Shown here: positions 32,167 through 57,926 of the stretch, in pieces
How the letters are laid out: the number at the start of each line of letters is the position of its first letter
How positions within the stretch are numbered: the first letter of the stretch is position 1
From: Closterium sp. NIES-65
Lineage: Eukaryota; Streptophyta; Zygnematophyceae; Desmidiales; Closteriaceae
NCBI GenBank assembly: GCA_948144175.1
Contig: CANXME010002149.1
Span: forward strand, 1,840,001-1,904,000
Direction of reading: 5' to 3'
DNA: 64,000 nt
Program-made: the position numbers and the translations under genes
Notes under the pieces: generated by a model
The model's database searches: none
Told to the model about the DNA's origin: nothing
What the model saw: the letters and a program-made list of their open reading frames with translations, nothing else

Positions 32167-32175
32167 TAACAAATA
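32167..32175. repeat. 9-bp direct duplication TAACAAATA, left
   Basis: Identical to 49991-49999, immediately outside the GGGAAAAT inverted-repeat end. Confidence 0.85.
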
Positions 32176-32335
32176 GGGAAAATATGTCACAGGTAACCAT
32201 CATGTGACCCGATAACGTCAATGGTAAAAAAAAAAAAGCGTACGGTAACTGTATCGAGTGTCCTGACGGGCTTGGTAAGCGGGGTCACGGAATCAGTCAC
32301 CATCAACAGCTAGGGCTTCACGCGAATGGTAACAC

Positions 32336-32641
32336 ATGAAACCCCCGCCAGAAATTCCTGAAACCAGGCCGATTTCCCGCTCGCGCCAACTCGTGCGGAG
32401 AGGTTTGATGCACGCTTGTACCGTCGAGCCTCCAGCCCACCGTAACCACACCACGACCCGACGTGCTGTACAACCCCATGTCCGCTACGGTTCCAACCAA
32501 GTACAGAACCTTGACCCCAGCGCAGCTCTCCAACTTACTTCCCGCCATCAGCTATTCCTCACGCTATTACTAGTAGCTATCATACCTTTCGCCAGCTGCC
32601 TTCCCCGTCACGCATCCAAGGCGTTCGTTAGCAGCATCTGA
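32336..32641 (+). CDS. Hypothetical 101-aa frame in left arm
   Basis: Starts MKPPPEIPETRPISRSRQ and contains a hydrophobic LFLTLLLVAIIPFASCLP segment followed by Arg/Lys. The copy in the right arm (49526-49831) is open too, with only about three residue changes. No family was recognised. Near-identity of the arms explains its survival without selection, so coding status is doubtful. Confidence 0.2.
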   Translation: MKPPPEIPETRPISRSRQLVRRGLMHACTVEPPAHRNHTTTRRAVQPHVRYGSNQVQNLDPSAALQLTSRHQLFLTLLLVAIIPFASCLPRHASKAFVSSI

Positions 32642-32816
32642 CTTCCTATCAACGGTGCGTGCCTTAGCCCTAAAGCCTTTCCCCATCCATTCACGTTTAG
32701 TCCCTTGTTACTCGAAAATTACTACTAATATGAATGAATAAAGTCGATCAGACCGCTGTCGCGATGCACCCACAAACCGGCGCGCCGAACAGCGCATCGC
32801 CCGATGCATCGGGCCC

Positions 32817-32846
32817 GATCGTCGCGAGATGCATCTCGCGACGATC
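32817..32846. repeat. 30-bp perfect palindrome in left arm
   Basis: Self-complementary around ATGCAT: GATCGTCGCGAGATG followed by its complement. A 16-bp palindrome GCCCGATGCATCGGGC lies just before it (32799-32814). The same pair occurs in the right arm, with the 30-mer at 49321-49350. Confidence 0.95.
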
Positions 32847-32859
32847 AGGAGCAGCCGCC

Positions 32860-33045
32860 GCCGCGATGCGCATTGCGGCCAGCTTCGGGCCGCAAAGCGC
32901 ATCGCGCCGACCGGGCCGCCGCCGCCGCGATGCGCATTGCGTCCTGCTTTTGGCCGCTCCGCGCATCGCGCCGACCAGGCCGCCGCCGTCGCAATGCGCA
33001 ATGCGGCCACCCTGCCGGCCGCATTGCGACGATCCGCCACCGTGA
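32860..33045. repeat. 64-bp GC-rich repeat, 3 copies
   Basis: TGCGCATTGCGG-type units recur at 64-bp spacing (TGCGCA at 32867, 32931 and 32995), with GCGCATCGCGCCGACC in between. It forms the border between unique arm and satellite. Mirrored at about 49120-49310. Confidence 0.85.
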
Positions 33046-33059
33046 TGCGCTAACCCGCC

Positions 33060-35090
33060 GCTCCCATACGCTCTCATTCCCTCTCACCCACTCTCTTACG
33101 CTCTCATTCCCTCTCACCCACTCTCTTACGCTCTCATTCCCTCTCACCCCCTCTCTTACGCTCTCATTCCCTCTCACCCCCTCTCTTACGCTCTCATTCC
33201 CTCTCACCCACTCTCGCACCCTCTCATTCCCTCTCACCCACTCTCATACGCTCTCATTCCCCCCACCCACTCTCATACGCTCTCATTCCCTCTCACCCAC
33301 TCTCATACGCTCTCATTCCCTCTCACCCACTCTCATACGCTCTCATTCCCTCTCACCCACTCCCATACGCTCTCATTCCCTCTCACCCTCTCTCATACGC
33401 TCTCACTCCCTCTCACCCACTCTCATACGCTCTCACTCCCTCTCACCCACTCTCTCACGCTCTCATTCCCTCTCACACAATCTCATACGCTCTCATTCCC
33501 TCTCACCCACTCTCATACGCTATCCTTCCCTCTCACCCACTCTCATACGCTCTCATTCCCTCTCATCCCTTCTCATCCCCTCTCATTCACTCTCATACAC
33601 TCTCCTATACCTTCATACTCTCTCATCATCCCTTATCATACACTCTCATTCACTCTCATCCCCTCTCATCCTCTCCCATCCCATGTCATTCCCTCTCATA
33701 TACTCTCACACCCTCTCGTACCCACTCATATGCACTCATATACACTCTCATCCCCTCTTATACACTCCCACACACACTCATACACTCTCATACACTCTCA
33801 TTCACACTCATCCCCTCTAATCCCCTCATATCCCCTCTCATCCCCTCCCATTCCCTCTCATACACTCTCACACACTCTCATACACTCTCTTACACACTCT
33901 CATCACTCCTCATCCACTCGCATACACTCTCAACCCCTCTCATGCTCTCTCATACACTCACATATACCCTTATTCACTCTCATCCCTCCTCATCCACTCT
34001 CATATACTCTCAACCCCTCTCATCCTCTCTCATACACTCACATACACCCTTATTCACTCTCATCCCCTCTCATACAAACTCATACCCCCTAATCCGCTCT
34101 CATCCACTCTCATACAACTCAATTACACTCTCATTCCCACCCATCCCCTCTTATCCCCTCACATCCTCTCTCATACACTCTCATCCCCTCTCATACACTC
34201 TCATACACTCTTGTACACACTCATACCCTCCCATACACTATCATATACGCTATCATCCCGTCATACTCTCCCGTACACACTCATACACTCTCATCCCTTC
34301 CCATATACTCTCATACACTCTCATCATCCCTTATCATACACTCTCATTCACTCTCATCCCCTCTCCTCCCCTCTCATCCCATCTCATTCCCTCTCATACA
34401 CTCTCATACACTCTCGTACCCACACATACCCACTCATAGACTATCATATACACTCTCATCCCCTCTTATACACTCCCCAACACACTCATACACTCTCATC
34501 CCTGCTCATCCCCTATCATCCCCTCTCATCCCCTCTCATCCCCTATCATCCCATCTTATACACTCTCACCCACTCTCATACGCTCTCATTCCCTCTCACC
34601 CACTCTCATACGCTCTCATTCCCTCTCACCCACTCTCATACTCTCTCATTCCCTCTCACCCACTCTCATACGCTCTCATTCCCTCTCACCCACACTCATA
34701 CGCTCTCATTCCCTCTCACCCACTCTCATACGCTCTCATTCCCTCTCACCCACTCTCATACGCTCTCATTCCCTCTCACCCACTATCATACTCTCTCATT
34801 CCCTCTCACCCACACTCATACGCTCTCATTCCCTCTCACCCACACTCATACGCTCTCATTCCCTCTCACCCACACTCATACGCTCCCATTCCCTCTCACC
34901 CACTCTCATACGCTCTCATTCCCTCTCACCCACTCTCATACGCTCTCATTCCCTCTCACCCACTCTCATACTCTCTCATTCCCTCTCACCCACTCTCATA
35001 CGCTCTCATTCCCTCTCACCCACTCTCATACTCTCTCATTCCCTCTCATCCACTCTCATCAACTCTCATACGCTCTCAACCCCTCTCAGA
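33060..35090. repeat. Satellite, pyrimidine-strand orientation
   Basis: 30-bp units (complement of AGAGCGTATG, AGAGTGGGTG, AGAGGGAATG) at 33060-33560 and 34561-35090. A diverged but still 10-bp-based stretch lies between (33560-34560, CTCTCATCCC / CTCATACA). Orientation flips at about 35085-35095. Confidence 0.95.
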
Positions 35091-38000
35091 GCGTATGAGT
35101 GTGGGTGAGAGGGAATGAGAGCGTATGAGTGTGGGTGAGAGGGAATGAGAGAGTATGAGAGTGGGTGAGAGGGAATGAGAGCGTATGAGAGTGGGTGAGA
35201 GGGAATGAGAGCGTAAGAGAGGGGGTGAGAGGGAATGAGAGCGTATGAGTGTGGGTGAGAGGGAATGAGAGCGTATGAGAGTGGGTGAGAGGGAATGAGA
35301 GAGTATGAGAGTGGGTGAGAGGGAATGAGAGGGTATGAGAGTGGGTGAGAGGGAATGAGAGCGTATGAGAGTGTGTGAGAGGGAATGCGAGGGTGTGAGG
35401 GTGGGTGAGAGGGAATGAGAGCGTATGAGTGTGGGTGAGAGGGAATGAGAGCGTATGAGTGTGGGTGAGAGGGAATGAGAGCGTATGAGTGTGGGTGAGA
35501 GGGAATGAGAGAGTATGAGAGTGGGTGAGAGGGAATGAGAGCGTATGAGAGTGGGTGAGAGGGAATGAGAGCGTATGAGAGTGGGTGAGAGGGAATGAGA
35601 GCGTATGAGTGTGGGTGAGAGGGAATGAGAGCGTATGAGAGTGGGTGAGAGGGAATGAGAGAGTATGAGAGTGGGTGAGAGGGAATGAGAGGGTATGAGA
35701 GTGGGTGAGAGGGAATGAGAGCGTATGAGAGTGTGTGAGAGGGAATGAGAGGGTGTGAGGGTGGGTGAGAGGGAATGAGTGCGTATGAGAGTGGATGAGA
35801 GGGGATGAGAGAGGATGAAAGGGGATGAACGTGAATGAGAGGGGATGAGAGGGAACGAGAGTGAATGAGAGGGGATGAGTTGAAATGAGAGTGTATGAGA
35901 GGGGATTAGAGTGTAGGAGAGGGGATGAGAGGGAATGAGAGTGGAAGAGATGGGATGAGAGGGGTTGAGAGTGGAAGAGAAGGGATGAGAGGGAATGTGA
36001 GTGGAAGAGAGGGTACGAGAGTGTATGAGAGGGAACGAGAGTGTGTGAGAGGGGATGAGGGGGGATGAGAGCTTATGAGAGTGAATGAGAGTGGGTGAGA
36101 GGGAATGAGAGCGTGTGAGGGTGGGTGAGAGGGAATGAGAGCGTATGAGAGTGGGTGAGAGGGAATGAGAGGGTATGAGAGTGGGTGAGAGGGAATGAGA
36201 GCGTATGAGAGTGTGTGAGAGGGAATGAGAGGGTGTGAGGGTGGGTGAGAGGGAATGAGAGCGTATGAGAATGGATGAGAGGGGATGAGAGGGGATGAAA
36301 GGGGATGAACGTGAATGAGAGGGGATGAGAGGGAACGAGAGTGAATGAGAGGGAATGAGAGCGTATGAGAGTGTGTGAGAGGGAATGAGAGGGTGTGAGG
36401 GTGGGTGAGAGGGAATGAGAGCGTATGAGAGTGGATGAGAGGGGATGAGAGAGGATGAAAGGGGATGAACGTGAATGAGAGGGGATGAGAGGGAACGAGA
36501 GTGAATGAGAGGGGATGAGTTGAAATGAGAGTGTATGAGAGGGGATTAGAGTGCATGAGAGGGGATGAGAGGGAATGAGAGTGGAAGAGATGGGATGAGA
36601 GGGTTTGAGAGTGGAAGAGAAGGGATGAGAGGGAATGTGAGTGGAAGAGAGGGTACGAGAGTGTATGAGAGGGAACGAGAGTGTGTGAGAGGGGATGAGG
36701 GGGGATGAGAGCTTATGAGAGTGAATGAGAGTGGGTGAGAGGGAATGAGAGCGTGTGAGGGTGGGTGAGAGGGAATGAGAGCGTATGGGTGTGAGGGAAT
36801 GAGAGGGTATGAGATGGGTGAGAGGGAATGAGAGCGTATGAGAGTGTGTGAGAGGGAATGAGAGGGTGTGAGGGTGGGTGAGAGGGAATGAGAGCGTATG
36901 AGAGTGGATGAGAGGGGATGAGAGGGGATGAAAGGGGATGAACGTGAATGAGAGGGGATGAGAGGGAACGAGAGTGAATGAGAGGGGATGAGTGGAAATG
37001 AGAGTGTATGAGAGGGGATTAGAGTGTAGGAGAGGGGATGAGAGGGAATAAGAGTGGAAGAGATGGGATGAGAGGGGTTGAGAGTGGAAGAGAAGGGATG
37101 AGAGGGAATGTGAGTGGAAGAGAGGGTACGAGAGTGTATGAGAGAGAATGAGAGTGTGTGAAGGGGAACGAGAGTGGATGAGAGGGGATGAGAGTGGATG
37201 AGAGGGGATGAGAGGGGATGAGAGTGAATATGAGTGTATAATAGTAGATGAGAGTGAATGTGGGGGAATGATAGTGTGTGAGATAGGACGAGAGGAGATG
37301 AGTGGGAATGAGAGTGTGTGAGAGGGGATGAGAGGGGATGAGAGTGGATGGGAGGGGTTGAGAGCGTATGAGAGTTGATGAGAGTGGATGAGAGGGAATG
37401 AGAGAGTATGAGAGTGGGTGAGAGGGAATAAAAGCGTATGAGAGTGGGTGAGAGGGAATGAGAGCGTATGAGAGTGGGTGAGAGGGAATGGGAGCGTATG
37501 AGTGTGGGTGAGAGGGAATGAGAGCGTATGAGTGTGGGTGAGAGGGAATGAGAGCGTATGAGTGTGGGTGAGAGGGAATGAGAGAGTATGAGAGTGGGTG
37601 AGAGGGAATGAGAGCGTATGAGAGTGGGTGAGAGGGAATGAGAGTGTATGAGAGTGGGTGAGAGGGAATGAGAGCGTATGAGTGTGGGTGAGAGGGAATG
37701 AGAGCGTATGAGAGTGGGTGAGAGGGAATGAGAGAGTATGAGAGTGGGTGAGAGGGAATGAGAGCGTATGAGAGTGGGTGAGAGGGAATGAGAGCGTATG
37801 AGAGTGGGTGAGAGGGAATGGGAGCGTATGAGTGTGGGTGAGAGGGAATGAGAGCGTATGAGTGTGGGTGAGAGGGAATGAGAGCGTATGAGTGTGGGTG
37901 AGAGGGAATGAGAGAGTATGAGAGTGGGTGAGAGGGAATGAGAGCGTATGAGAGTGGGTGAGAGGGAATGAGAGCGTATGAGAGTGGGTGAGAGGGAATG

Positions 38001-41000
38001 AGAGCGTATGAGTGTGGGTGAGAGGGAATGAGAGCGTATGAGAGTGGGTGAGAGGGAATGAGAGAGTATGAGAGTGGGTGAGAGGGAATGAGAGCGTATG
38101 AGAGTGGGTGAGAGGGAATGAGAGCGTATGAGAGTGGGTGAGAGGGAATGGGAGCGTATGAGTGTGGGTGAGAGGGAATGAGAGCGTATGAGTGTGGGTG
38201 AGAGGGAATGAGAGCGTATGAGTGTGGGTGAGAGGGAATGAGAGAGTATGAGAGTGGGTGAGAGGGAATGAGAGCGTATGAGAGTGGATGAGAGGGGATG
38301 AGAGGGGATGAAAGGGGATGAACGTGAATGAGAGGGGATGAGAGGGAATGAGAGTGAATGAGAGGGGATGAGTGGGAATGAGAGTGTATGAGAGGGGATT
38401 AGAGTGTAGGAGAGGGGATGAGAGGGAATGAGAGTGGAAGAGATGGGATGAGAGGGGTTGAGAGTGGAAGAGAAGAGATGAGAGGGAATGTGAGTGGAAG
38501 AGAGGGTACGAGAGTGTATGAGAGGGAATGAGAGTGTGTGAAGGGGAACGAGAGTGGATGAGAGGGGATGAGAGTGGATGAGAGGGGATGAGAGGGGATG
38601 AGAGTGAATATGAGTGTATGATAGTAGATGAGAGTGAATGTGGGGGAATGATAGTGTGTGAGATAGGACGAGAGGAGATGAGTGGGAATGAGAGTGTGTG
38701 AGAGGGGATGAGAGGGGATGAGAGTGGATGGGAGGGGTTGAGAGCGTATGAGAGTTGATGAGAGTGGATGAGAGGGAATGAGAGAGTATGAGAGTGGGTG
38801 AGAGGGAATGAGAGCGTATGAGAGTGGGTGAGAGGGAATGAGAGCGTATGAGAGTGGGTGAGAGGGAATGGGAGCGTATGAGTGTGGGTGAGAGGGAATG
38901 AGAGCGTATGAGTGTGGGTGAGAGGGAATGAGAGCGTATGAGTGTGGGTGAGAGGGAATGAGAGAGTATGAGAGTGGGTGAGAGGGAATGAGAGCGTATG
39001 AGAGTGGGTGAGAGGGAATGAGAGCGTATGAGAGTGGGTGAGAGGGAATGAGAGCGTATGAGTGTGGGTGAGAGGGAATGAGAGCGTATGAGAGTGGGTG
39101 AGAGGGAATGAGAGAGTATGAGAGTGGGTGAGAGGGAATGAGAGCGTATGAGAGTGGGTGAGAGGGAATGAGAGCGTATGAGAGTGGGTGAGAGGGAATG
39201 GGAGCGTATGAGTGTGGGTGAGAGGGAATGAGAGTGTATGAGTGTGGGTGAGAGGGAATGAGAGCGTATGAGTGTGGGTGAGAGGGAATGAGAGAGTATG
39301 AGAGTGGGTGGGAGGGAATGAGAGCGTATGAGAGTGGGTGAGAGGGAATGAGAGCGTATGAGAGTGGGTGAGAGGGAATGAGAGCGTATGAGTGTGGGTG
39401 AGAGGGAATGAGAGCGTATGAGAGTGGGTGAGAGGGAATGAGAGAGTATGAGAGTGGGTGAGAGGGAATGAGAGCGTATGAGAGTGGGTGAGAGGGAATG
39501 AGAGCGTATGAGAGTGGGTGAGAGGGAATGGGAGCGTATGAGTGTGGGTGCGAGGGAATGAGAGCGTATGAGTGTGGGTGAGAGGGAATGAGAGCGTATG
39601 AGTGTGGGTGAGAGGGAATGAGAGAGTATGAGAGTGGGTGAGAGGGAATGAGAGCGTATGAGAGTGGATGAGAGGGGATGAGAGGGGATGAAAGGGGATG
39701 AACGTGAATGAGAGGGGATGAGAGGGAACGAGAGTGAATGAGAGGGGATGAGTGGAAATGAGAGTGTATGAGGGGGGATTAGAGTGTAGGAGAGGGGATG
39801 AGAGGGAATGAGAGTGGAAGAGATGGGATGAGAGGGGTTGAGAGTGGAAGAGAAGGGATGAGAGGGAATGTGAGTGGAAGAGAGGGTACGAGAGTGTATG
39901 AGAGGGAATGAGAGTGTGTGAAGGTGAACGAGAGTGGATGAGAGGGGATGAGAGTGGATGAGAGGGGATGAGAGGGGATGAGAGTGAATATGAGTGTATG
40001 ATAGTAGATGAGAGTGAATGTGGGGGAATGATAGTGTGTGAGATAGGACGAGAGGAGATGAGTGGGAATGAGAGTGTGTGAGAGGGGATGAGAGGGGATG
40101 AGAGTGGATGGGAGGGGTTGAGAGCGTATGAGAGTTGATGAGAGTGGATGAGAGGGAATGAGAGAGTATGAGAGTGGGTGAGAGGGAATGAGAGCGTATG
40201 AGAGTGGGTGAGAGGGAATGAGAGCGTATGAGAGTGGGTGAAAGGGAATGGGAGCGTATGAGTGTGGGTGAGAAGGAATGAGAGCGTATGAGTGTGGGTG
40301 AGAGGGAATGAGAGCGTATGAGTGTGGGTGAGAGGGAATGAGAGAGTATGAGAGTGGGTGAGAGGGAATGAGAGCGTATGAGAGTGGGTGAGAGGGAATG
40401 AGAGCGTATCAGAGTGGGTGAGAGGGAATGAGAGCGTATGAGTGTGGGTGAGAGGGAATGAGAGCGTATGAGAGTGGGTGAGAGGGAATGAGAGAGTATG
40501 AGAGTGGGTGAGAGGGAATGAGAGCGTATGAGAGTGGGTGAGAGGGAATGAGAGCGTATGAGAGTGGGTGAGAGGGAATGGGAGCGTATGAGTGTGGGTG
40601 AGAGGGAATGAGAGCCTATGAGTGTGGGTGAGAGGGAATGAGAGCGTATGAGTGTGGGTGAGAGGGAATGAGAGAGTATGAGAGTGGGTGAGAGGGAATG
40701 AGAGCGTATGAGAGTGGGTGAGAGGGAATAAGAGCGTATGAGAGTGGGTGAGAGGGAATGAGAGCGTATGAGTGTGGGTGAGAGGGAATGAGAGCGTATG
40801 AGAGTGGGTGAGAGGGAATGAGAGAGTATGAGAGTGGGTGAGAGGGAATGAGAGCGTATGAGAGTGGGTGAGAGGGAATGAGAGCGTATGAGAGTGGGTG
40901 AGAGGGAATGGGAGCGTATGAGTGTGGGTGAGAGGGAATGAGAGCGTATGAGTGTGGGTGAGAGGGAATGAGAGCGTATGAGTGTGGGTGAGAGGGAATG

Positions 41001-44000
41001 AGAGAGTATGAGAGTGGGTGGGAGGGAATGAGAGCGTATGAGAGTGGGTGAGAGGGAATGAGAGCGTATGAGAGTGGGTGAGAGGGAATGAGAGCGTATG
41101 AGTGTGGGTGAGAGGGAATGAGAGCGTATGAGAGTGGGTGAGAGGGAATGAGAGAGTATGAGAGTGGGTGAGAGGGAATGAGAGCGTATGAGAGTGGGTG
41201 AGAGGGAATGAGAGCGTATGAGAGTGGGTGAGAGGGAATGGGAGCGTATGAGTGTGGGTGAGAGGGAATGAGAGCGTATGAGTGTGGGTGAGAGGGAATG
41301 AGAGCGTATGAGTGTGGGTGAGAGGGAATGAGAGAGTATGAGAGTGGGTGAGAGGGAATGAGAGCGTATGAGAGTGGATGAGAGGGGATGAGAGGGGATG
41401 AAAGGGGATGAACGTGAATGAGAGGGGATGAGAGGGAACGAGAGTGAATGAGAGGGGATGAGTGGAAATGAGAGTGTATGAGGGGGGATTAGAGTGTAGG
41501 AGAGGGGATGAGAGGGAATGAGAGTGGAAGAGATGGGATGAGAGGGGTTGAGAGTGGAAGAGAAGGGATGAGAGGGAATGTGAGTGGAAGAGAGGGTACG
41601 AGAGTGTATGAGAGGGAATGAGAGTGTGTGAAGGTGAACGAGAGTGGATGAGAGGGGATGAGAGTGGATGAGAGGGGATGAGAGGGGATGAGAGTGAATA
41701 TGAGTGTATGATAGTAGATGAGAGTGAATGTGGGGGAATGATAGTGTGTGAGATAGGACGAGAGGAGATGAGTGGGAATGAGAGTGTGTGAGAGGGGATG
41801 AGAGGGGATGAGAGTGGATGGGAGGGGTTGAGAGCGTATGAGAGTTGATGAGAGTGGATGAGAGGGAATGAGAGAGTATGAGAGTGGGTGAGAGGGAATG
41901 AGAGCGTATGAGAGTGGGTGAGAGGGAATGAGAGCGTATGAGAGTGGGTGAGAGGGAATGGGAGCGTATGAGTGTGGGTGAGAGGGAATGAGAGCGTATG
42001 AGTGTGGGTGAGAGGGAATGAGAGCGTATGAGTGTGGGTGAGAGGGAATGAGAGAGTATGAGAGTGGGTGAGAGGGAATGAGAGCGTATGAGAGTGGGTG
42101 AGAGGGAATGAGAGCGTATGAGTGTGGGTGAGAGGGAATGAGAGCGTATGAGTGTGGGTGAGAGGGAATGAGAGCGTATGAGTGTGGGTGAGAGGGAATG
42201 AGAGAGTATGAGAGTGGGTGAGAGGGAATGAGAGCGTATGAGAGTGGATGAGAGGGGATGAGAGGGGATGAAAGGGGATGAACGTGAATGAGAGGGGATG
42301 AGAGGGAACGAGAGTGAATGAGAGGGGATGAGTGGAAATGAGAGTGTATGAGGGGGGATTAGAGTGTAGGAGAGGGGATGAGAGGGAATGAGAGTGGAAG
42401 AGATGGGATGAGAGGGGTTGAGAGTGGAAGAGAAGGGATGAGAGGGAATGTGAGTGGAAGAGAGGGTACGAGAGTGTATGAGAGGGAATGAGAGTGTGTG
42501 AAGGTGAACGAGAGTGGATGAGAGGGGATGAGAGTGGATGAGAGGGGATGAGAGCGGATGAGAGTGAATATGAGTGTATGATAGTAGATGAGAGTGAATG
42601 TGGGGGAATGATAGTGTGTGAGATAGGACGAGAGGAGATGAGTGGGAATGAGAGTGTGTGAGAGGGGATGAGAGGGGATGAGAGTGGATGGGAGGGGTTG
42701 AGAGCGTATGAGAGTTGATGAGAGTGGATGAGAGGGAATGAGAGAGTATGAGAGTGGGTGAGAGGGAATGAGAGCGTATGAGAGTGGGTGAGAGGGAATG
42801 GGAGCGTATGAGTGTGGGTGAGAGGGAATGAGAGCGTATGAGTGTGGGTGAGAGGGAATGAGAGCGTATGAGTGTGGGTGAGAGGGAATGAGAGAGTATG
42901 AGAGTGGGTGAGAGGGAATGAGAGCGTATGAGAGTGGGTGAGAGGGAATGAGAGCGTATGAGAGTGGGTGAGAGGGAATGAGAGCGTATGAGTGTGGGTG
43001 AGAGGGAATGAGAGCGTATGAGAGTGGGTGAGAGGGAATGAGAGAGTATGAGAGTGGGTGAGAGGGAATGAGAGCGTATGAGAGTGGGTGAGAGGGAATG
43101 AGAGCGTATGAGAGTGGGTGAGAGGGAATGGGAGCGTATGAGTGTGGGTGAGAGGGAATGAGAGCGTATGAGTGTGGGTGAGAGGGAATGAGAGCGTATG
43201 AGTGTGGGTGAGAGGGAATGAGAGAGTATGAGAGTGGGTGAGAGGGAATGAGAGCGTATGAGAGTGGGTGAGAGGGAATGAGAGCGTATGAGAGTGGGTG
43301 AGAGGGAATGAGAGCGTATGAGTGTGGGTGAGAGGGAATGAGAGCGTATGAGAGTGGGTGAGAGGGAATGAGAGAGTATGAGAGTGGGTGAGAGGGAATG
43401 AGAGGGTATGAGAGTGGGTGAGAGGGAATGAGAGCGTATGAGAGTGTGTGAGAGGGAATGAGAGGGTGTGAGGGTGGGTGAGAGGGAATGAGAGCGTATG
43501 AGAGTGGATGAGAGGGGATGAGAGCGTATGAGAGTGGGTGAGAGGGAATGAGAGCGTATGAGAGTGGGTGAGAGGGAATGGGAGCGTATGAGTGTGGGTG
43601 AGAGGGAATGAGAGCGTATGAGTGTGGGTGAGAGGGAATGAGAGCGTATGAGTGTGGGTGAGAGGGAATGAGAGAGTATGAGAGTGGGTGAGAGGGAATG
43701 AGAGCGTATGAGAGTGGGTGAGAGGGAATGAGAGCGTATGAGAGTGGGTGAGAGGGAATGAGAGCGTATGAGTGTGGGTGAGAGGGAATGAGAGCGTATG
43801 AGAGTGGGTGAGAGGGAATGAGAGTGGATGAGAGGGGATGAGAGTGGATGAGAGGGGATGAGAGGGGATGAGAGTGAATATGAGTGTATGATAGTAGATG
43901 AGAGTGAATGTGGGGGAATGATAGTGTGTGAGATAGGACGAGAGGAGATGAGTGGGAATGAGAGTGTGTGAGAGGGGATGAGAGGGGATGAGAGTGGGTG

Positions 44001-47000
44001 GGAGGGGTTGAGAGCGTATGAGAGTTGATGAGAGTGGATAAGAGGGAATGAGAGAGTATGAGAGTGGGTGAGAGGGAATGAGAGCGTATGAGAGTGGGTG
44101 AGAGGGAATGAGAGCGTATGAGAGTGGGTGAGAGGGAATGGGAGCGTATGAGTGTGGGTGAGAGGGAATGAGAGCGTATGAGTGTGGGTGAGAGGGAATG
44201 AGAGCGTATGAGTGTGGGTGAGAGGGAATGAGAGAGTATGAGAGTGGGTGAGAGGGAATGAGAGCGTATGAGTGTGGGTGAGAGGGAATGAGAGAGTATG
44301 AGAGTGGGTGAGAGGGAATGAGAGCGTATGAGAGTGGATGAGAGGGGATGAGAGGGGATGAAAGGGGATGAACGTGAATGAGAGGGGATGAGAGGGAACG
44401 AGAGTGAATGAGAGGGGATGAGTGGAAATGAGAGTGTATGAGGGGGGATTAGAGTGTAGGAGAGGGGATGAGAGGGAATGAGAGTGGAAGAGATGGGATG
44501 AGAGGGGTTGAGAGTGGAAGAGAAGGGATGAGAGGGAATGTGAGTGGAAGAGAGGGTACGAGAGTGTATGAGAGGGAATGAGAGTGTGTGAAGGTGAACG
44601 AGAGTGGATGAGAGGGGATGAGAGTGGATGAGAGGGGATGAGAGCGGATGAGAGTGAATATGAGTGTATGATAGTAGATGAGAGTGAATGTGGGGGAATG
44701 ATAGTGTGTGAGATAGGACGAGAGGAGATGAGTGGGAATGAGAGTGTGTGAGAGGGGATGAGAGGGGATGAGAGTGGATGGGAGGGGTTGAGAGCGTATG
44801 AGAGTTGATGAGAGTGGATGAGAGGGAATGAGAGAGTATGAGAGTGGGTGAGAGGGAATGAGAGCGTATGAGAGTGGGTGAGAGGGAATGGGAGCGTATG
44901 AGTGTGGGTGAGAGGGAATGAGAGCGTATGAGTGTGGGTGAGAGGGAATGAGAGCGTATGAGTGTGGGTGAGAGGGAATGAGAGAGTATGAGAGTGGGTG
45001 AGAGGGAATGAGAGCGTATGAGAGTGGGTGAGAGGGAATGAGAGCGTATGAGAGTGGGTGAGAGGGAATGAGAGCGTATGAGTGTGGGTGAGAGGGAATG
45101 AGAGCGTATGAGAGTGGGTGAGAGGGAATGAGAGAGTATGAGAGTGGGTGAGAGGGAATGAGAGCGTATGAGAGTGGGTGAGAGGGAATGAGAGCGTATG
45201 AGAGTGGGTGAGAGGGAATGGGAGCGTATGAGTGTGGGTGAGAGGGAATGAGAGCGTATGAGTGTGGGTGAGAGGGAATGAGAGCGTATGAGTGTGGGTG
45301 AGAGGGAATGAGAGAGTATGAGAGTGGGTGAGAGGGAATGAGAGCGTATGAGAGTGGGTGAGAGGGAATGAGAGCGTATGAGAGTGGGTGAGAGGGAATG
45401 AGAGCGTATGAGTGTGGGTGAGAGGGAATGAGAGCGTATGAGAGTGGGTGAGAGGGAATGAGAGAGTATGAGAGTGGGTGAGAGGGAATGAGAGGGTATG
45501 AGAGTGGGTGAGAGGGAATGAGAGCGTATGAGAGTGTGTGAGAGGGAATGAGAGGGTGTGAGGGTGGGTGAGAGGGAATGAGAGCGTATGAGAGTGGATG
45601 AGAGGGGATGAGAGCGTATGAGAGTGGGTGAGAGGGAATGAGAGCGTATGAGAGTGGGTGAGAGGGAATGGGAGCGTATGAGTGTGGGTGAGAGGGAATG
45701 AGAGCGTATGAGTGTGGGTGAGAGGGAATGAGAGCGTATGAGTGTGGGTGAGAGGGAATGAGAGAGTATGAGAGTGGGTGAGAGGGAATGAGAGCGTATG
45801 AGAGTGGGTGAGAGGGAATGAGAGCGTATGAGAGTGGGTGAGAGGGAATGAGAGCGTATGAGTGTGGGTGAGAGGGAATGAGAGCGTATGAGAGTGGGTG
45901 AGAGGGAATGAGAGTGGATGAGAGGGGATGAGAGTGGATGAGAGGGGATGAGAGGGGATGAGAGTGAATATGAGTGTATGATAGTAGATGAGAGTGAATG
46001 TGGGGGAATGATAGTGTGTGAGATAGGACGAGAGGAGATGAGTGGGAATGAGAGTGTGTGAGAGGGGATGAGAGGGGATGAGAGTGGGTGGGAGGGGTTG
46101 AGAGCGTATGAGAGTTGATGAGAGTGGATGAGAGGGAATGAGAGAGTATGAGAGTGGGTGAGAGGGAATGAGAGCGTATGAGAGTGGGTGAGAGGGAATG
46201 AGAGCGTATGAGAGTGGGTGAGAGGGAATGGGAGCGTATGAGTGTGGGTGAGAGGGAATGAGAGCGTATGAGTGTGGGTGAGAGGGAATGAGAGCGTATG
46301 AGTGTGGGTGAGAGGGAATGAGAGAGTATGAGAGTGGGTGAGAGGGAATGAGAGCGTATGAGAGTGGGTGAGAGGGAATGAGAGCGTATGAGAGTGGGTG
46401 AGAGGGAATGAGAGCGTAGGAGTGTGGGTGAGAGGGAATGAGAGCGTATGAGAGTGGGTGAGAGGGAATGAGAGAGTATGAGAGTGGGTGAGAGGGAATG
46501 AGAGGGTATGAGAGTGGGTGAGAGGGAATGAGAGCGTATGAGAGTGTGTGAGAGGGAATGAGAGGGTGTGAGGGTGGGTGAGAGGGAATGAGAGCATATG
46601 AGAGTGGATGAGAGGGGATGAGAGCGTATGAGAGTGGGTGAGAGGGAATGAGAGCGTATGAGAGTGGGTGAGAGGGAATGGGAGCGTATGAGTGTGGGTG
46701 AGAGGGAATGAGAGCGTATGAGTGTGGGTGAGAGGGAATGAGAGCGTATGAGTGTGGGTGAGAGGGAATGAGAGAGTATGAGAGTGGGTGAGAGGGAATG
46801 AGAGCGTATGAGAGTGGGTGAGAGGGAATGAGAGCGTATGAGAGTGGGTGAGAGGGAATGAGAGCGTATGAGTGTGGGTGAGAGGGAATGAGAGCGTATG
46901 AGAGTGGGTGAGAGGGAATGAGAGTGGATGAGAGGGGATGAGAGTGGATGAGAGGGGATGAGAGGGGATGAGAGTGAATATGAGTGTATGATAGTAGATG

Positions 47001-49090
47001 AGAGTGAATGTGGGGGAATGATAGTGTGTGAGATAGGACGAGAGGAGATGAGTGGGAATGAGAGTGTGTGAGAGGGGATGAGAGGGGATGAGAGTGGGTG
47101 GGAGGGGTTGAGAGCGTATGAGAGTTGATGAGAGTGGATGAGAGGGAATGAGAGAGTATGAGAGTGGGTGAGAGGGAATGAGAGCGTATGAGAGTGGGTG
47201 AGAGGGAATGAGAGAGTATGAGAGTGGGTGAGAGGGAATGAGAGCGTATGAGAGTGGGTGAGAGGGAATGAGAGCGTATGAGAGTGGGTGAGAGGGAATG
47301 GGAGCGTATGAGTGTGGGTGAGAGGGAATGAGAGCGTATGAGTGTGGGTGAGAGGGAATGAGAGCGTATGAGTGTGGGTGAGAGGGAATGAGAGAGTATG
47401 AGAGTGGGTGAGAGGGAATGAGAGCGTATGAGAGTGGGTGAGAGGGAATGAGAGCGTATGAGAGTGGGTGAGAGGGAATGAGAGCGTATGAGAGTGGGTG
47501 AGAGGGAATGAGAGAGTATGAGAGTGGGTGAGAGGGAATGAGAGCGTATGAGAGTGGGTGAGAGGGAATGAGAGCGTATGAGAGTGGGTGAGAGTGTATA
47601 AGATGGGATGATAGGGGATGAGAGGGGATGAGAGGGGATGAGAGGGGATGATAGGGGATGAGCAGGGATGAGAGTGTATGAGTGTGTTGGGGAGTGTATA
47701 AGAGGGGATGAGAGTGTATATGATAGTCTATGAGTGGGTATGTGTGGGTACGAGAGTGTATGAGAGTGTATGAGAGGGAATGAGATGGGATGAGAGGGGA
47801 GGAGAGGGGATGAGAGTGAATGAGAGTGTATGATAAGGGATGATGAGAGTGTATGAGAGTATATGGGAAGGGATGAGAGTGTATGAGTGTGTACGGGAGA
47901 GTATGGCGGGATGATAGCGTATATGATAGTGTATGGGAGGGTATGAGTGTGTACAAGAGTGTATGAGAGTGTATGAGAGGGGATGAGAGTGTATGAGAGA
48001 GGATGTGAGGGGATAAGAGGGGATGGGTGTGAATGAGAGTGTAATTGAGTTGTATGAGAGTGGATGAGAGCGGATTAGGGGGTATGAGTTTGTATGAGAG
48101 GGGATGAGAGTGAATAAGGGTGTATGTGAGTTTATGAGAGAGGATGAGAGGGGTTGAGAGTATATGAGAGTGGATGAGGAGGGATGAGAGTGAATAAGGG
48201 TGTATGTGAGTGTATGAGAGAGCATGAGAGGGGTTGAGAGTGTATGCGAGTGGATGAGGAGTGATGAGAGTGTGTAAGAGAGTGTATGAGAGTGTGTGAG
48301 AGTGTATGAGAGGGAATGGGAGGGGATGAGAGGGGATATGAGGGGATTAGAGGGGATGAGTGTGAATGAGAGTGTATGAGAGTGTATGAGTGTGTGTGGG
48401 AGTGTATAAGAGGGGATGAGAGTGTATATGAGTGCATATGAGTGGGTACGAGAGGGTGTGAGAGTATATGAGAGGGAATGACATGGGATGGGAGAGGATG
48501 AGAGGGGATGAGAGTGAATGAGAGTGTATGATAAGGGATGATGAGAGAGTATGAAGGTATAGGAGAGTGTATGAGAGTGAATGAGAGGGGATGAGAAGGG
48601 ATGAGAGGGAATGAGAGCGTATGAGAGTGGGTGAGAGGGAAGGATAGCGTATGAGAGTGGGTGAGAGGGAATGAGAGCGTATGAGAGTGGGTGAGAGGGA
48701 ATGAGAGCGTGAGAGAGTGGGTGAGAGGGAGTGAGAGCGTATGAGAGTGGGTGAGAGGGAGTGAGAGCGTATGAGAGAGGGTGAGAGGGAATGAGAGCGT
48801 ATGGGAGTGGGTGAGAGGGAATGAGAGCGTATGAGAGTGGGTGAGAGGGAATGAGAGCGTATGAGAGTGGGTGAGAGGGAATGAGAGCGTATGAGAGTGG
48901 GTGGGGGGAAAGAGAGCGTATGAGAGTGGGTGAGAGGGAATGAGAGGGTGCGAGAGTGGGTGAGAGGGAATGAGAGCGTAAGAGAGGGGGTGAGAGGGAA
49001 TGAGAGCGTAAGAGAGGGGGTGAGAGGGAATGAGAGCGTAAGAGAGTGGGTGAGAGGGAATGAGAGCGTAAGAGAGTGGGTGAGAGGGAA
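35091..49090. repeat. Satellite, purine-strand orientation, with higher-order structure
   Basis: 14 kb of 30-bp units made of AGAGCGTATG, AGAGTGGGTG and AGAGGGAATG; all sub-units fit AGAGNNNNTG. The AGAGAGTATG variant recurs at alternating 180 and 150 bp (37401, 37581, 37731, 37911, 38061, 38241), a 330-bp 11-unit order. An interrupting block with AGATAGGACG recurs at 37281, 38661, 40041, 41751, 42621, 43931, 44711, 46021 and 47031, giving 1380-, 1710- (plus one 330), 870-, 1310-, 780- and 1010-bp super-units. The very long open frame 42359-47956 (minus) is a by-product of the period being divisible by three. Confidence 0.97.
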
Positions 49091-49990
49091 TGAGAGCGTA
49101 TGGGAGCGGCGGGTTAGCGCATCACGGTGGCGGATCGTCGCAATGCGGCCGGCAGGGTGGCCGCATTGCGCATTGCGACGGCGGCGGCCTGGTCGGCGCG
49201 ATGCGCGGAGCGGCCAAAAGCAGGACGCAATGCGCATCGCGGCGGCGGCGGCCCGGTCGGCGCGATGCGCTTTGCGGCTCGAAGCTGGCCGCAATGCGCA
49301 TCGCGGCGGCGGCTGCTCCTGATCGTCGCGAGATGCATCTCGCGACGATCGGGCCCGATGCATCGGGCGATGCGCTGTTCGGCGCGCCGGTTTGTGGGTG
49401 CATCGCGACAGCGGTCTGATCGACTTTATTCATTCATATTAGTAGTAATTTTCGAGTAACAAGGGACTAAACGTGAATGGATGGGGAAAGGCTTTAGGGC
49501 TAAGGCACGCACCGTTGATAGGAAGTCAGGTGCTGCTAACGAACGCCTTGGATGCGTGACGGGGAAGGCAGCTGGCGAAAGGTATGATAGCTACTAGTAA
49601 TAGCGTGAGGAATAGCTGATGGCGGGAAGTAAGTTGGAGAGCTGCGCTGGGGTCAAGGTTCTGTACTTGGTTGGAACCGTAGCGGGCATGGGGGTGTACA
49701 GCACGTCGGGTCGTGGTGTGGTTACGGTGGGCTGGAGGCTCGACGGTACAAGCGTGCATCAAACCTCTCCGCACGAGTTGGCGCGAGCGGGAAATCGGCC
49801 TGGTTTCAGGAATTTCTGGCGGGGGTTTCATGTGTTACCATTCGCGTGAAACCCTAGCTGTTGATGGTGACTGATTCCGTGACCCCGCTTACCAAGCCCG
49901 TCAGGACACTCGATACAGTTACCGTACGCTTTTTGTTTTTGCCATTGACGTTATCGGGTCACATGATGGTTACCTGTGACATATTTTCCC
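49090..49990. repeat. Right inverted-repeat arm, unique part
   Basis: Complement of 32176-33060, including the 64-bp repeats, the 30-bp palindrome (49321-49350) and the 101-aa frame. It ends at ...ATATTTTCCC before the 9-bp duplication. Confidence 0.92.
49526..49831 (-). CDS. Hypothetical 101-aa frame in right arm
   Basis: Inverted copy of the frame at 32336-32641, with changes such as RAVHPHARYG for RAVQPHVRYG and a final Thr for Ile. The possible membrane segment is retained. Doubtful as a gene. Confidence 0.2.
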   Translation of the reverse strand: MKPPPEIPETRPISRSRQLVRRGLMHACTVEPPAHRNHTTTRRAVHPHARYGSNQVQNLDPSAALQLTSRHQLFLTLLLVAIIPFASCLPRHASKAFVSST

Positions 49991-49999
49991 TAACAAATA
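49991..49999. repeat. 9-bp direct duplication TAACAAATA, right
   Basis: Identical to 32167-32175, immediately outside the right inverted-repeat end (...ATATTTTCCC). Confidence 0.85.
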
Positions 50000-50785
<786 letters not shown>

Positions 50786-50789
50786 TGAA

Positions 50790-50914
50790 TGAACAGGAAT
50801 GTGTGAACTATGAATGAAGGCAGTACAAATATGAAACCCTAACTGGGTTGTACCCCCTATGGGATACCCCACTACAGCCTACACAATAGTATAAGCTATA
50901 GATATGTTCTGACA
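50790..50914 (-). repeat. 3' LTR of copia-2, outer edge uncertain
   Basis: Shares TGTAGTGGGGT...GGGTACAACCC...TTAGGGTTT order with LTRs of the small LTR elements. Only the inner boundary (50914/50915, next to CACCCCCATAG) is certain; the outer edge is estimated from the 134-136-bp LTRs of relatives. Confidence 0.6.
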
Positions 50915-51130
50915 CACCCCCATAGGCAAAGTGGGGGAGAACAAGGGGTCACAAGACCAGTCAAGCAAAGCAAAGCAAAGCAAGCTCGGGGTGGATCACA
51001 AAGTCACCACGCATTCCGAGCACAAGTTCAAAGGCCAGACGGCCAGTTCACATGCAAGATCATATATAGAGATATACAAGAGTCAAGCAAGCAAGAGCAA
51101 GAGTATATATAGGCGAAGGTACAAGCAAGG

Positions 51131-54100
51131 TCAAGAGGAGAGCAAGTGAGGCAAGACAGGCACAAGACCCAACTGCGTGCAACAACGCTGATGATCACAA
51201 GGCGCAAGTGCCTTGGTGAAGACATCAGCAGTGTTGGCCTCAGAGGCCACGTACGCAAGTCGCAACTGTCCACGCTGCTGTAGCTCACGAGCAAGAAAGT
51301 AGCGGAGAGCAATGTGCTTCGTTCTGTGCTCCAGTCGCTGCTCTCGACACAAGGCCAGCATGGCCTTGTTGTCTACGTACAGGACTGGAGGAGAACGAGG
51401 CTGCTCTCCAAGGTCGGTCAGCAGGTAGGTGAGCCAGCGTAACTCCTGCGCAGCCATAGCCCCAGCGTAGATCTCAGCCTCACAACTGGAGCCGAGAACA
51501 GAAGACGAGCGGGTAGCCCGCCACGAGACAGAGCCGGAACCAAGGCTGAAGGTGTAACCCTGTGACGACCGCTGCGTAGCCTGGTCGTCAGCCCAAGAAG
51601 CGTCTGCGTGCCCAGTGAGGACCACTGGACTGCGCCCTCCAAGCACTAGCCCCATGCCCGACGTACTGCACAAGTAACGCAACACCCTCTTCGCTGCAGC
51701 CATGTGCTCTGGTCGGTGTCTCCCAGGAGCAACAAAGCGTGCGAGAATGCTAAGAGGGTATGCGAGGTCAGGTCGTGTGCAGGTCATCAGGTACATGAGG
51801 CAGCCAACAAGCTCTGCAAACGGACCACTCGACTCTACGGACTCATCCGAAGGCAGAGCTGAGAGCGAGTGGCGAGTAGGCAGAGGAGTGGCCTGAGGCG
51901 AGGAGTACGTGAAGCCGAAGCGCTGAAGGACCTGCTGCACCATGTGTGACTGAGTCAGGGTAATGGTGCGGCGTGCTCTGTCCCGGGTGATCTGCAAGCC
52001 AAGGTAGCTACGCAGTTCACCTAGGTCAGTGCACGTGTGTCTCTTCTGCAGCTCGGACTTCACGTAGGCGAGTCCAGCAGTGTCAGCTGTGGCAGAGACC
52101 AAGTCGTCGACGTACACGAGGATGTAGAACGGCGGCAGAGAGGTGTCGGTGCGCAGAAACAGCGACGGGTCGGCAGTAGAAGGAGCAAACCCAAGTGCCG
52201 CGAGCGTAGTCCTCAGTGTGTCGTGCCACTCACGTGGCGCCTGGCGGAGACCGTAGACTGGACGCCGCAGACTCCACTGGGTACCAGGAGGGAAAGACCC
52301 AGTGAAGCCAGGTGGGCGACGCAGCCAGATCTCCTCGTGCAGGCTGCCCTGCAAGAAAGCTGTGCTGAAGTCGAGAGAGTGCAGCTCGTAGTCGCGGTGA
52401 GCAGCAACGTGCAGCAGAACCCGAAGAGTGGTCATCTTAGGGGTGGGGGAGAAGGTCTGAAAGTAGTCAACCCCCTGCCGCTGACTGAAGCCACGAGCCA
52501 CGTAACGCGCCTTGAAGACAGGCGGAGAACCCGGCGGCCGCTTCACCCTGAAAATCCACATGCCACTGACGATGTTCGCCCCAGGAGGGGGAACAGCGTC
52601 AACGTAGGTGCCTGTGGACTTCCAGGAAGCCATCTCTGCATCCATAGCTGCCTGCCACTGAGAGGAGTAGGGACCCTCTATCGCCTCCGCGTAAGAGCGC
52701 GGAGTCGGGATGTCTGGTGCATCCGGGTCTCCCTCAGGGGCTAGCAGTACAGACGCGAGACGAGGTGAAGCAGCGGCTAGACACTGGAACTCCTCCTGCC
52801 TGTCCTCAAGGACGTCCGTGCCAAGGGCACACTCACCCCCGACGGACGGAGGACAGGCGGACTCAGACTCAGTGACAAGACGAGCAGCGTAGTCTAGACG
52901 ACAGCGCGCAGCAAAGTCGACAAGCTCAGTGACAAGGGCAGACGCAGCAGACGACTCGAAGGAAGGGTCAGTGACAGCAGTAGCAAGGAGACGCGTGACA
53001 GTAGGACTGGCAGCACGAAGAGAGTCCGACTCCGGGTCGGCAAGAGCAGGAAGAGAGGAAGCAGGAGGAGAAGGCAAAGGGGCACGCAGAGGAGCAGTGG
53101 ACGGACGCAGTGACATCCGGTGCGTGCCAGGGACAGGAGGAGGACGCTGACGCGACCCGCGACCACTAGCGCGCTCAGTACGAACAGGCGACGCAGGACG
53201 AGACGCAGGCTCACGACGCTCAGTAAGACCTCCATTCGGACCAGCGTAGGGAGAAGGAGCAGGCAAAGGGGAGGCATGCTGTAGCTGTGGCTGTGACCGG
53301 ACAGGCTGCGGACCCTCTAAGGGAGGAGGAGGAGGTGCAAGACCAAGAACCTGCTGCAGGAGCGGAACGAAGTACGGTCGGGGCCGCGCGGCGACGCCAG
53401 AAACAGCAGGAACAGCACCAGCAGGCCCGTCAGGAGCACCCACTCCAGCAGCACCTCCAGCAGAACCACCAGAAGCTCCAGAACCTCCAGCAGCAGCACC
53501 AGGAGTACTCTCAGTCGGACCTCCAACCGCAGGCTCAGCGCCAACACCCTCAGCAGTACCAGCTCCAGGAGAGCTCTCAGACCCAGCAGCTCCAGCACCC
53601 ACAGTACGAGCACCGCCAGGACGCGTGGCAGCAGTACCCTCTGCAGCCGAAGAACCACCAGCACCAGCAGCACGCCTCCAGCGCCGGGCAAACCACTCAC
53701 GCAGCTCCTGTGAGGAGAGTGGCTCCCGGCGAGACGAAGCACCCCCAGGCACAGCACCCCCAGGCTCAGCACCCCCAGGAACAGCACCCCCAGGCTCAGC
53801 ACCCCCAGGCTCACCACCCCCAGGCACAGCACCCCCAGGCGCAGCACCCCCAGGAACAGCACCCCCAGGCTCAGCACCCCCAGGCACAGCACCCCCAGGC
53901 TCGACACCTCCAGGCTCAGCACCCCCAGGCACAGCACCCCCAGGCTCAGCACCCCCAGACTCCGCACCCCCAGGCTCAGCTCCCGCAGCAGCACCAGACT
54001 CACCAGTGACCTCGACAGGCTCAACCGCGTCTACCTGGGACACACCTGAAGGGGCAGGACCCTGAGGGGGGAGGGGGACTACCGGGGGGGGACCTGGTAC

Positions 54101-55991
54101 CAAGAAGAGCGGGGGTGGGGGGAGGGACGGAGTGCGGTAGGGGAAGAGGCGGTAGTAGGGTACCGACTCGTCGAACGTGACGTCCTGGGAGGACAGAACA
54201 CGTCGAGAGGTGGGGTGGTAAAACTGCCACCCAGGGGCGTCGGGGGGGAACCCCAGGAAGACGCAGGGAGAAGCACGAGGGGACAGCTTGTCCGCAGACA
54301 GGTCGCGAACAAACGCCCGAGATCCCCAGACTCGGAACGCCGACGCATCGCCAACCTTCCCAGTCCACAGCAGAGCTGGGGAGGTCTCCGCTCGAGAGAC
54401 CCTGGGGTGGAGGTTGATCTGGTGCGCAGCGTACCTGACCGCAAACGGCCACAGAAAATGGGGAGCAGCCGCATGCATCATGGACGTACGAGCGACGTCC
54501 ATGACCATGCCAATGCGGCGCTCAGCAATCCCATTCTGCTGTGGTGAGTCCGGAAGCGTGAAGGTCTGACGGATGCCTCGCACACGACAGTAGGCACTCA
54601 GGAGGGCAGAGGAGAACTCTCCGCCTCTGTCCGAGTGCAGACGCAAAACAGGGAAGTCAGAGCCAAAGCTCCTCCGAAGCTGGAGACGAGCTGCGCGGAT
54701 CCAGTCGATCAACACCTCAGTGACCTCACCCTTGCTGCGCAAGGGGAAGACTGTGGTGTAACGCGAGTAGTCGTCAACCACCAGCAGGAAGTAGCGCTCC
54801 TGACCCTGGCCACGGACGCGGGCTGGGCCCCACACGTCCATGTGAAGCGTCTGCAACGGGGCCTCTGTCGGAGGAAACTGGGAGGAGTGAGGGGCAGCAC
54901 GCTGGCGCCCCTCGACACAGGGGACACAGGCAGGGCCAGGGCCCGGAGGGAGGGGAGGGAGGGACCGGGGAAGACCAGACACAAGGACTCGCGAGGCCAT
55001 GCCTCTGAGCCGAAGCAGAGAGGGGTGGCCAAGGCGGTGGTGCCAGAGGAGGGTCTCGTGAGACAGACGACGACACGAACAGGGGGCAGACTCAGGACCA
55101 GACCTGGACGCTGCAGCAAACACCTGACCAGACGAAGGGACCCTACCAGACGCAGTACCTGGAGGAGAAGCAGTGGTCAGTGTGTACAGGCTCGACCCTG
55201 GCTGACGTGTAAACGTAGCCAGGTGGCGACCTGTATCCGCCTCCGTGCAGTGGGTCACCCGCTGACGAGCAGGGGTGAACTGGTGGACACCCGCATCCTG
55301 AAGGTCAGCACCACTCACCAAGTTCGTCGAGAACGAGGGGAGGTAGAGACCAGTCAGGGTGCCAGAGGGGGCCGCCGGACACGGGAGGACAGTGGAGAAG
55401 CGAGACAGGACAGGCCCCCCAGAGGGGTCAGCCAGGGACACCGCAACAGGCCGACTTAGCGGCGTGAGAGTGGTGCGGTCCCTAAAGAAGGAGCGAGACG
55501 CTCCAGAGTCAAGGGTGAAGGTGTGAGAGGCCGAAGCCGACACAGTACCTGAGAGGGCGGACTCACCAGTACCTGAGAGCACAGACGCACTGGCACCTAG
55601 AGCAGCAGCCTCACTAGTACCTGACGCGGCAGTACCAATGCCCGGGTCGGGCGGGAAACACCGGTAACAGTCATCCTCATCACTACCAGTCACAGCATAC
55701 ATAGCAGAGAGAATAGCATCAAAGTCAAGATCATAAATAGCTACACCAGCCCTAGACAGCTCTCCCCAGCGGGGGATCTCAGCGGCCTCCGGAAACTGCT
55801 GACGCCAGGCGTCGGTCAGGCGGCCAAAGCAGCGACGGGCTGTGTGGGCGCCTCCACACCTCTCCCCTGCACGGTCACCAGTGCGAAGAACGTAGGGGCA
55901 GGGACCAAGCGCACCACCGCGCTGACGCTGCAAGTACCACTCACGGAGCTGCTGAGGGCCGGGGACGGTGCGAGAGCGCTGCTGCTGCTGC

Positions 55992-56029
<38 letters not shown>

Positions 56030-57101: not shown

Positions 57102-57179
57102 GGCAGCAGCTGAAAGTCTCACCGGGCTAGGAGAGTCGGGTAGGTCTGCAGTAGAGGAACACAGCGCAGGAACAGCAGC

Positions 57180-57790: not shown

Positions 57791-57792
57791 AG

Positions 57793-57926
57793 TGTCAAAT
57801 TATATGATTTATATAATTTAGGTTTAGGTTTTGTAGGGGTGTTTCTTAGGGGGTACAACTTTTCTCTCGTCACTTTTGTACCCCATGCCCCAAACTAGTC
57901 GACATCATTCCTCTCTCACCTTGACA
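57793..57926 (+). repeat. 5' LTR of copia-3
   Basis: TG...CA ends, 134 bp, AT-rich start and pyrimidine-rich end, directly followed by the primer site. Confidence 0.82.

Follow-up and report, generated by a model that had tools for sequence, protein, structure and literature searches.

A satellite block in Closterium sp. NIES-65 is very probably a deleted copy of a foldback-type Mutator-like transposon family

How satellite arrays start and how they reach new chromosomal places is a long-standing question, and its closest case, the Tetris element, comes without a transposase. The question is raised anew by a stretch of 64,000 nucleotides (hereafter the window; C1851:1840001-1904000) in the 874-Mb, 2,400-contig assembly of Closterium sp. 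NIES-65, where a block made almost wholly of a 30-bp satellite lies between terminal inverted repeats (TIRs). What is this block, and how did the satellite come to lie there? Window positions 32176-49990 (17,815 bp; C1851:1872176-1889990) are, with high probability, a non-autonomous, internally deleted copy of a Closterium family of foldback-type Mutator-like elements (MULEs), whose long inverted arms each consist of an 885-bp unique end followed by inward-pointing 30-bp satellite, and whose members a transposase would move in trans; the interior of the window copy would have been lost. An earlier note on this DNA, made from its letters alone, had placed the element at 32167-49999; the element is real, but that span takes in both of its target site duplications. 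The features of the window copy are as follows.

32167..32175, no strand: left 9-bp target site duplication TAACAAATA (exact word search and flank comparison)
32176..33060, + strand: left TIR, unique part, 885 bp, starting GGGAAAATATG (arm alignment and genome matches)
33061..35087, + strand: left satellite array, its 30-bp unit CTCTCATACGCTCTCATTCCCTCTCACCCA directed inward; both the right arm and the left arm of the related copy C1712 are colinear with it
35080..35095, no strand: inversion junction without spacer, at which the coding interior of the relatives is missing
35088..49106, - strand: right satellite array, with the 30-bp unit on the opposite strand, 14.0 kb
49107..49990, - strand: right TIR, unique part, 884 bp
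49991..49999, no strand: right 9-bp target site duplication TAACAAATA (exact word search and flank comparison)

The word TAACAAATA occurs exactly twice in the whole window, at 32167 and 49991, directly outside the inverted ends, and its reverse complement is absent from the window. When left and right flanks of different loci of the family were paired as a control, none of 152 pairs agreed at 8 or more of 9 positions (maximum 5), and the perfect 9-bp duplication described in the earlier note is therefore not a chance match. The ends are, again as described there, inverted copies of GGGAAAATATGTCACAGGTA... with 49 of their first 50 bases identical, but the inverted repeat does not stop at 50 bp. 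Its unique arms (885 and 884 bp) differ by seven substitutions and a 1-base indel, with 99.21% identity over 884 positions, and the alignment of left with right arm stays at 96% or more per 100 columns to about 2.8 kb from the end, bar one block with a 10-bp indel, until identity drops (left arm, about 35,000-35,030; right arm, about 47,127-47,155). Since both arrays, when split into variant units, also show these units in identical order from each arm inward, the inverted repeat includes satellite and totals about 2.85 kb (885 unique bp and about 1.9 kb of satellite). In the inner part of the left unique arm lie GC-rich subrepeats of 64 bp that are predicted to fold strongly (DNA fold z-score of -4.62 at 32750-33080). 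No further arm copies lie in the window outside the element, where arm matches reach at most 20 bases, and no plasmid match for the arm was found.

The satellite occupies 33061-49105, or 16,045 of the 17,815 bp (90.1%), and has a period of 30 bp with 10-bp ancestry. It points inward in both arms, over 2.0 kb in the left and 14.0 kb in the right, in agreement with the earlier description of an interior that is almost entirely satellite. The left array ends at a spacer-free inversion point (35,087/35,088), and the right array runs about 12 kb further; between 36815 and 45356 a block of 1.11-1.14 kb can be placed in it six times, at 95.1-96.4% and with an overlap between two of the placements. 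Outside the two 885-bp arms the copy is satellite throughout and has no interior; it thus has the make-up of a foldback element, with TIRs consisting largely of short tandem repeats around little or no interior. A coding role of the satellite, suggested by a 1,865-amino-acid open frame at 42359-47956 (- strand), was considered and rejected, because shuffled sequence yields comparable runs by the composition of the pyrimidine-rich strand alone (longest open run 3,842 in the right array, and 2,020-4,672 in 50 dinucleotide shuffles). An open frame that crosses from the arm into the satellite matches two proteins of Closterium sp. NIES-65.

A search of the genome with the 885-bp arm (40 of 165 candidates scored) gave at least 52 matches, and paired inverted ends, enclosing 15-71 kb, were identified at ten loci, named here by contig.

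C1851 (the window copy): 17.8 kb
C1266: 20.1 kb
C1712: 19.9 kb
C697: 24.1 kb
C2079 and C1680: 14.9 kb each, same flanks
C105 and C2360: 21.6 and 21.4 kb, same flanks
C1872: 40.4 kb
C1770: 71.3 kb

As C2079/C1680 and C105/C2360 are duplicated segments or haplotypes, the ten paired copies represent eight independent sites. These same-flank contig pairs also agree with copy-number variation reported for the species complex (PMC10407611; this and the other articles cited by PMC number were available in part). Nested insertions are found inside the large copies, and the arms of some copies are split by inserts. One such insert, in the left arm of C697 (C697:790268-790609), bears the box GGTTCGAATCCC, which we take to be a tRNA-like promoter box, and is possibly a tRNA-derived short interspersed element. 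The same ends also bound three short elements, 535-537 bp long, that contain no satellite.

Target duplications, examined in the ten paired copies and the three short elements, are exact over 9 bp in ten of these 13 and over 10 bp in C1872, and agree at 8 of 9 positions in C1712 and C1834, so that the further duplication-flanked copies for which the earlier note had proposed a search do exist (11 of the 13, the window copy included, are exact). A 35-base end pattern has 40 exact places in the genome (control 0), 22 of which belong to these 13 elements, and a stretch of inner arm from the subfamily of the window copy occurs 13 times, in seven loci, with one mismatch at most (control 0). Within one copy the two arms are 97.2-99.9% alike (eight copies compared). 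The family thus has two of the marks of MULEs, namely long TIRs (in the window copy 885 bp with 99.2% identity, followed by about 1.9 kb of satellite) and duplications of 8-11 bp, typically 9 bp.

A third mark is present as well: members of the family that share these ends encode a transposase with a DDE domain. C1712 is laid out as TIR, 5.9 kb of satellite, a 5.8-kb interior, 6.4 kb of inverted satellite and TIR, and its interior holds a 506-amino-acid exon with a MULE transposase domain. Downstream lies an 825-amino-acid frame with a SWIM-like motif (recognized by eye), a sub-cut-off CCHC zinc knuckle and an 18-bp minisatellite; the exon and this frame are probably two exons of one gene. A profile search of the genome with PF10551 (150 of 171 candidates scored) gave at least 149 matches; eight of the ten paired copies contain one each. 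A tblastn search with the exon (85 of 234 candidates scored) gave at least 86 matches, 12 of which cover nearly the whole exon with 91-100% identity. Eight of these 12 exons are free of stops, each within a paired copy. In six of six aligned proteins, the other five of which are 48-96% identical to the first, D242, D306, E405 and C327xxH330 are invariant; we take the former three to be the MULE catalytic positions and the latter to be the C-x2-H position. The 18-bp minisatellite stretch is present in three of the four coding copies that were read whole. The partner with a MULE transposase that the earlier note suggested looking for is accordingly represented by an open exon in eight of the ten paired copies, and its call of a non-autonomous MULE- or foldback-like element stands, given relatives with the same ends that hold this exon and long TIRs of tandem repeats.

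The transposase also has a match in Closterium sp. Naga37s-1 at 96% identity, and relatives at 31-72% identity on C222, C350, C1440, C1673, C430, C2051, C995 and others, many of them open frames of about 500-560 amino acids. A search of the PDB returned one match (E-value 0.74), which we take as chance. A second, convergent frame of 203 amino acids (C1872:2533132-2533740, + strand) resembles the N-terminal region of the transposase at about 42%; it is also matched at 40-43% in C1770, where the match contains a stop, and in C2360 and C105, and is shortened in C1712. Maize MuDR carries two convergent genes, an arrangement that this frame recalls.

That another superfamily (P/Galileo type, Rehavkus, hAT or other) moves the family, with the MULE genes as passengers, is scarcely credible. 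Galileo, of the P superfamily, does have foldback arms with tandem repeats (PMC4079207), and Rehavkus does combine 9-bp duplications with a minisatellite (PMC6446971), yet the MULE exon lies in eight of the ten paired copies and is open in all eight, the duplications are of 9-10 bp as in MULEs, and the other long frames seen look copia-like by eye and vary from copy to copy. Galileo shares with the Closterium family its long arms with internal tandem repeats, but its transposase is of the THAP-domain, P-superfamily type (cited in PMC4079207). Rehavkus and the aphid Phantom are MULE-related and have 8-10 bp duplications and an internal minisatellite; they differ, as far as the available part of the source goes, in having one minisatellite near the transposase end and no inverted arrays in both arms (PMC6446971). 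Rehavkus is characterized by a PHD finger and a minisatellite before the 3' TIR, whereas a Pfam scan of the two C1712 frames gave no PHD finger, and the Closterium satellite lies in both arms.

Among the matches listed, no PF10551 or transposase match falls in the window copy or in C1266, and the interior of C1712 matches the window by its satellite edges only. The window copy is taken as a non-autonomous deletion derivative because of this lack of a listed transposase match, and we take C1266, which retains interior pieces (its ends and 10 kb were read), as non-autonomous as well. The spacer-free inverted join of the window copy sits in repeats, and its palindrome could in part be an assembly artefact, a full element having been misjoined across its arrays. 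We regard this as improbable: both ends, the unique arms and the duplication adjoin left and right flanks that are unlike each other, past 2 kb the arrays of the two arms no longer agree in content or length, and C1266 is likewise without a listed transposase match, though with parts of its interior kept.

Does the satellite move with the transposon? The first 1,480 bp of the left-arm satellite of the window were compared with 21 other arms (a set without the C1770 arms and without the left arm of either C1680 or C2360), and five shuffles of the 30-bp units per arm served as control. Eight of the 21 are colinear from the arm inward at 98.6-99.5%, with scores of 1388-1466 against 520-662 for the shuffled arms: the right arm of the window copy, both arms of C1712 and of C697, and the right arms of C2079, C1680 and C783. 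These represent the window site and four other sites, and the left array of the window is 98.1% like that of C1712 over all 2,027 bp. Moreover, queries made of joined flanks with one copy of the duplication identified empty sites for the C697 insertion (C1450:3783804-3784305) and the C1266 insertion (C783:682058-682557), each at 99% over positions 1-500 of 500, at the level of the alignment. For these two copies, the array is thus missing from a near-identical unoccupied site, as is expected of a mobile satellite. Colinear arrays across sites, together with the two empty sites, therefore support the view that the satellite travels with the transposon to new loci, as the earlier note had supposed. 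Its further idea that this copy had captured or generated the satellite holds less well; the arms of transposase-bearing members contain it too, so that no capture by the window copy itself is required.

The arrays themselves vary in length between 0.7 kb (next to the split left arm of C1872) and 38 kb (C1770), and those read hold 23 to about 1,280 copies of the 30-bp unit. They might be functional arms under selection, providing extra transposase-binding or promoter-insulating sequence, and not inert growth: an array is present in at least one arm seen of each of the ten paired copies, and Galileo has extra transposase sites within its tandem repeats, as told in PMC4079207. We consider this unlikely in view of the three copies of about 536 bp that have the same ends but no satellite, two of them with perfect duplications, as well as of the wide range in array length and the replacement of some arms.

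We propose that the deleted foldback-type MULE copy arose as follows. Coding members are ordered TIR, satellite, genes, inverted satellite and TIR. MULE transposases bind the ends and move copies with 9-bp duplications; the family's transposase, presumably active, would act in trans on copies that have the ends, carry the satellite along and leave a duplication of 9 bp (in one case 10 bp). The satellite in the long inverted arms would probably be moved passively, because the short copies have none. Between moves, the arrays may change by unequal exchange or slippage, with block duplication in the right arm of the window copy, replacement in C1266 and the 38 kb of C1770 as presumed outcomes. 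In the window copy, the interior would have been lost and the left and right arrays joined directly, after which the right array may have grown by duplication of the 1.1-kb block.

Several observations weigh against this reading. Activity and movement are read from sequence alone, the junction at 35,087/35,088 is known from the assembly alone, and the window site has no second copy in the assembly, both candidates (two of two) being its own flanks. The C1712 exon scores 26.4 bits when scanned alone, just under the Pfam cut-off of 27.6; the genome scan puts PF10551 over the cut-off in all eight transposase-bearing paired copies. The four other near-full-length exons contain stops, and C1770 showed no 18-bp minisatellite, for which reason an open exon need not mean an autonomous copy. 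Of the 40 exact ends, 18 lie outside the 13 elements that were checked for duplications. Finally, 13 of the 21 arms, including both C1266 arms and the left arm of C2079, are without colinearity at about 99%; twelve align at 82-89%, still above the shuffled controls, and the left arm of C105 shows no alignment to the left-arm satellite of the window at all. The arrays therefore turn over.

How does this family relate to the satellite in the rest of the genome? The exact 30-base unit has 10,247 occurrences (1,595 + 8,652; reversed-pattern control 0), 683 of which lie within five satellite-bearing elements read whole, and six perfect units in tandem have 99 + 5,062 occurrences (control 0). Among the places listed (the first 100 of each search), units lie on C443 at 50514-59461 and 76915-98102. 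Genome-wide pattern searches found no exact 35-base end and no inner arm stretch on this contig, and no arm or transposase is among the matches listed for it, and its array at 50514-98102 is a candidate for free satellite. Six-unit runs lie on C465 at 33087-37248, again among the places listed, and on this contig there are also an arm truncated by 269 bases at its start and a transposase exon interrupted by two stops. C885, C985 and C2075 have arms that break off at that same position; the neighbouring 100 bases are nearly alike in six of eight cut arms, and two share only the last 35 or so. Given these shared neighbours, C465 and its likes look like copies of one immobilised element whose far arm grew. 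Arm pairs cut at TIR base 270, facing away from each other and 11 kb apart, were also seen at C2284:93429-105660 and C2075:195456-207678, with about 35 common bases at the cut.

The satellite may have pre-existed as large arrays from which an ancestral MULE acquired it, the element then being its vehicle and not its source. The share of exact units found within the five whole-read elements (the remaining elements being uncounted) and the C443 array are in line with such a capture, but six-unit perfect runs lie partly on C465, beside a truncated arm and an exon of the family's transposase, which fits growth from an element. Furthermore, the longest perfect run is three units in four of the five whole-read copies and 11 in C1770, so that the element-borne arrays are more diverse and presumably older. 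We regard capture first as a rather doubtful account, and our reading is that the very long homogeneous arrays elsewhere may have grown from arms of family elements. We tentatively hypothesize, while rating it at slightly less than an even chance, that a living MULE family acts as a satellite factory. Its transposase would plant ready-made 30-bp arrays at new sites, and the arms would lengthen as blocks are duplicated, one copy having reached 38 kb. Copies that have lost their ends (C465 and its duplicates) would serve as fixed seeds of homogeneous arrays of tens of kb or more, much of the Closterium 30-bp satellite thus being of transposon-arm descent.

The earlier note knew of no described element of this size made almost entirely of satellite. 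This holds at satellite scale, as we found in the open-access literature no MULE with arms of that kind and no such element in Closterium, and the available part of the Closterium genome paper mentions neither 'MULE' nor 'DNA transposon' (PMC10407611), but smaller precedents have been described in Muta1 (PMC5225508) and the satellite-bearing Tetris (PMC4079207). Muta1 of Aedes aegypti, termed a type-2 foldback element, is 3.2 kb long, encodes a 504-residue MULE transposase and repeats a 12-bp motif nine times within a TIR of 145 bp; subterminal tandem repeats occur in 10 of 12 long-TIR MULE families of Aedes (PMC5225508). It resembles the Closterium family in its 8-9 bp duplications, its short end motif with subterminal repeats and its many non-autonomous derivatives (PMC5225508), whereas the Closterium arrays, of 23 to about 1,280 units of 30 bp, have higher-order blocks and sit in elements of 15-71 kb with nested insertions. 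In Tetris of Drosophila virilis, the outer domain measures up to 866 bp, the repeats are about 220 bp long, the target duplications are of 8-10 bp, and satellite arrays of up to 66 copies derive from the element; no copy encoding a transposase was found, according to the available part of the source (PMC4079207). An outer domain followed by tandem repeats within the TIRs, with array length varying between copies, is common to both (PMC4079207), but the Closterium family has a transposase exon between its arms and a 30-bp unit. Helitrons, another kind of satellite carrier, are not known to leave a target duplication. Their satellites resemble ours in being arrays carried by a transposon and found outside it too, and differ in being moved by a rolling-circle element, in central arrays without inverted arms (PMC12628747). 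What we have not found described in the open-access literature are arrays of several kb to 38 kb with higher-order blocks, their link to an open transposase exon, and their occurrence on the land-plant side of the algae. Here one genome presents the array, the arms, the open transposase exon and occupied and empty sites, with coding, deleted and truncated copies together; with this, one could test how a satellite is seeded, grows and is homogenised in a unicellular land-plant relative for which sister strains exist.

Around the element, the window has no Rfam match and no tRNA. A perfect TC dinucleotide tract of 45.5 copies (50261-50351) lies about 270 bp outside the right end. Copia-type polyprotein frames are found on both sides of the element, at 51131-56806 (- strand) and 7632-9263 (- strand), both with RVT_2 and the former also with integrase and gag pre-integrase domains, and stretches resembling each other flank the element. 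A plant-type rhamnose synthase gene (NDP-sugar dehydratase/epimerase) lies at 24274-25955 (- strand); among the proteins of similar length that were searched, its best match, an unnamed protein, is at 91%, with named land-plant proteins at up to 87% and chlorophyte ones at about 70-73%. Two further minisatellites occur in the window, one with a 62-bp unit in 9.5 copies at 97% (15724-16309) and one with a 31-bp unit in 3.9 perfect copies at the window start (1-122).

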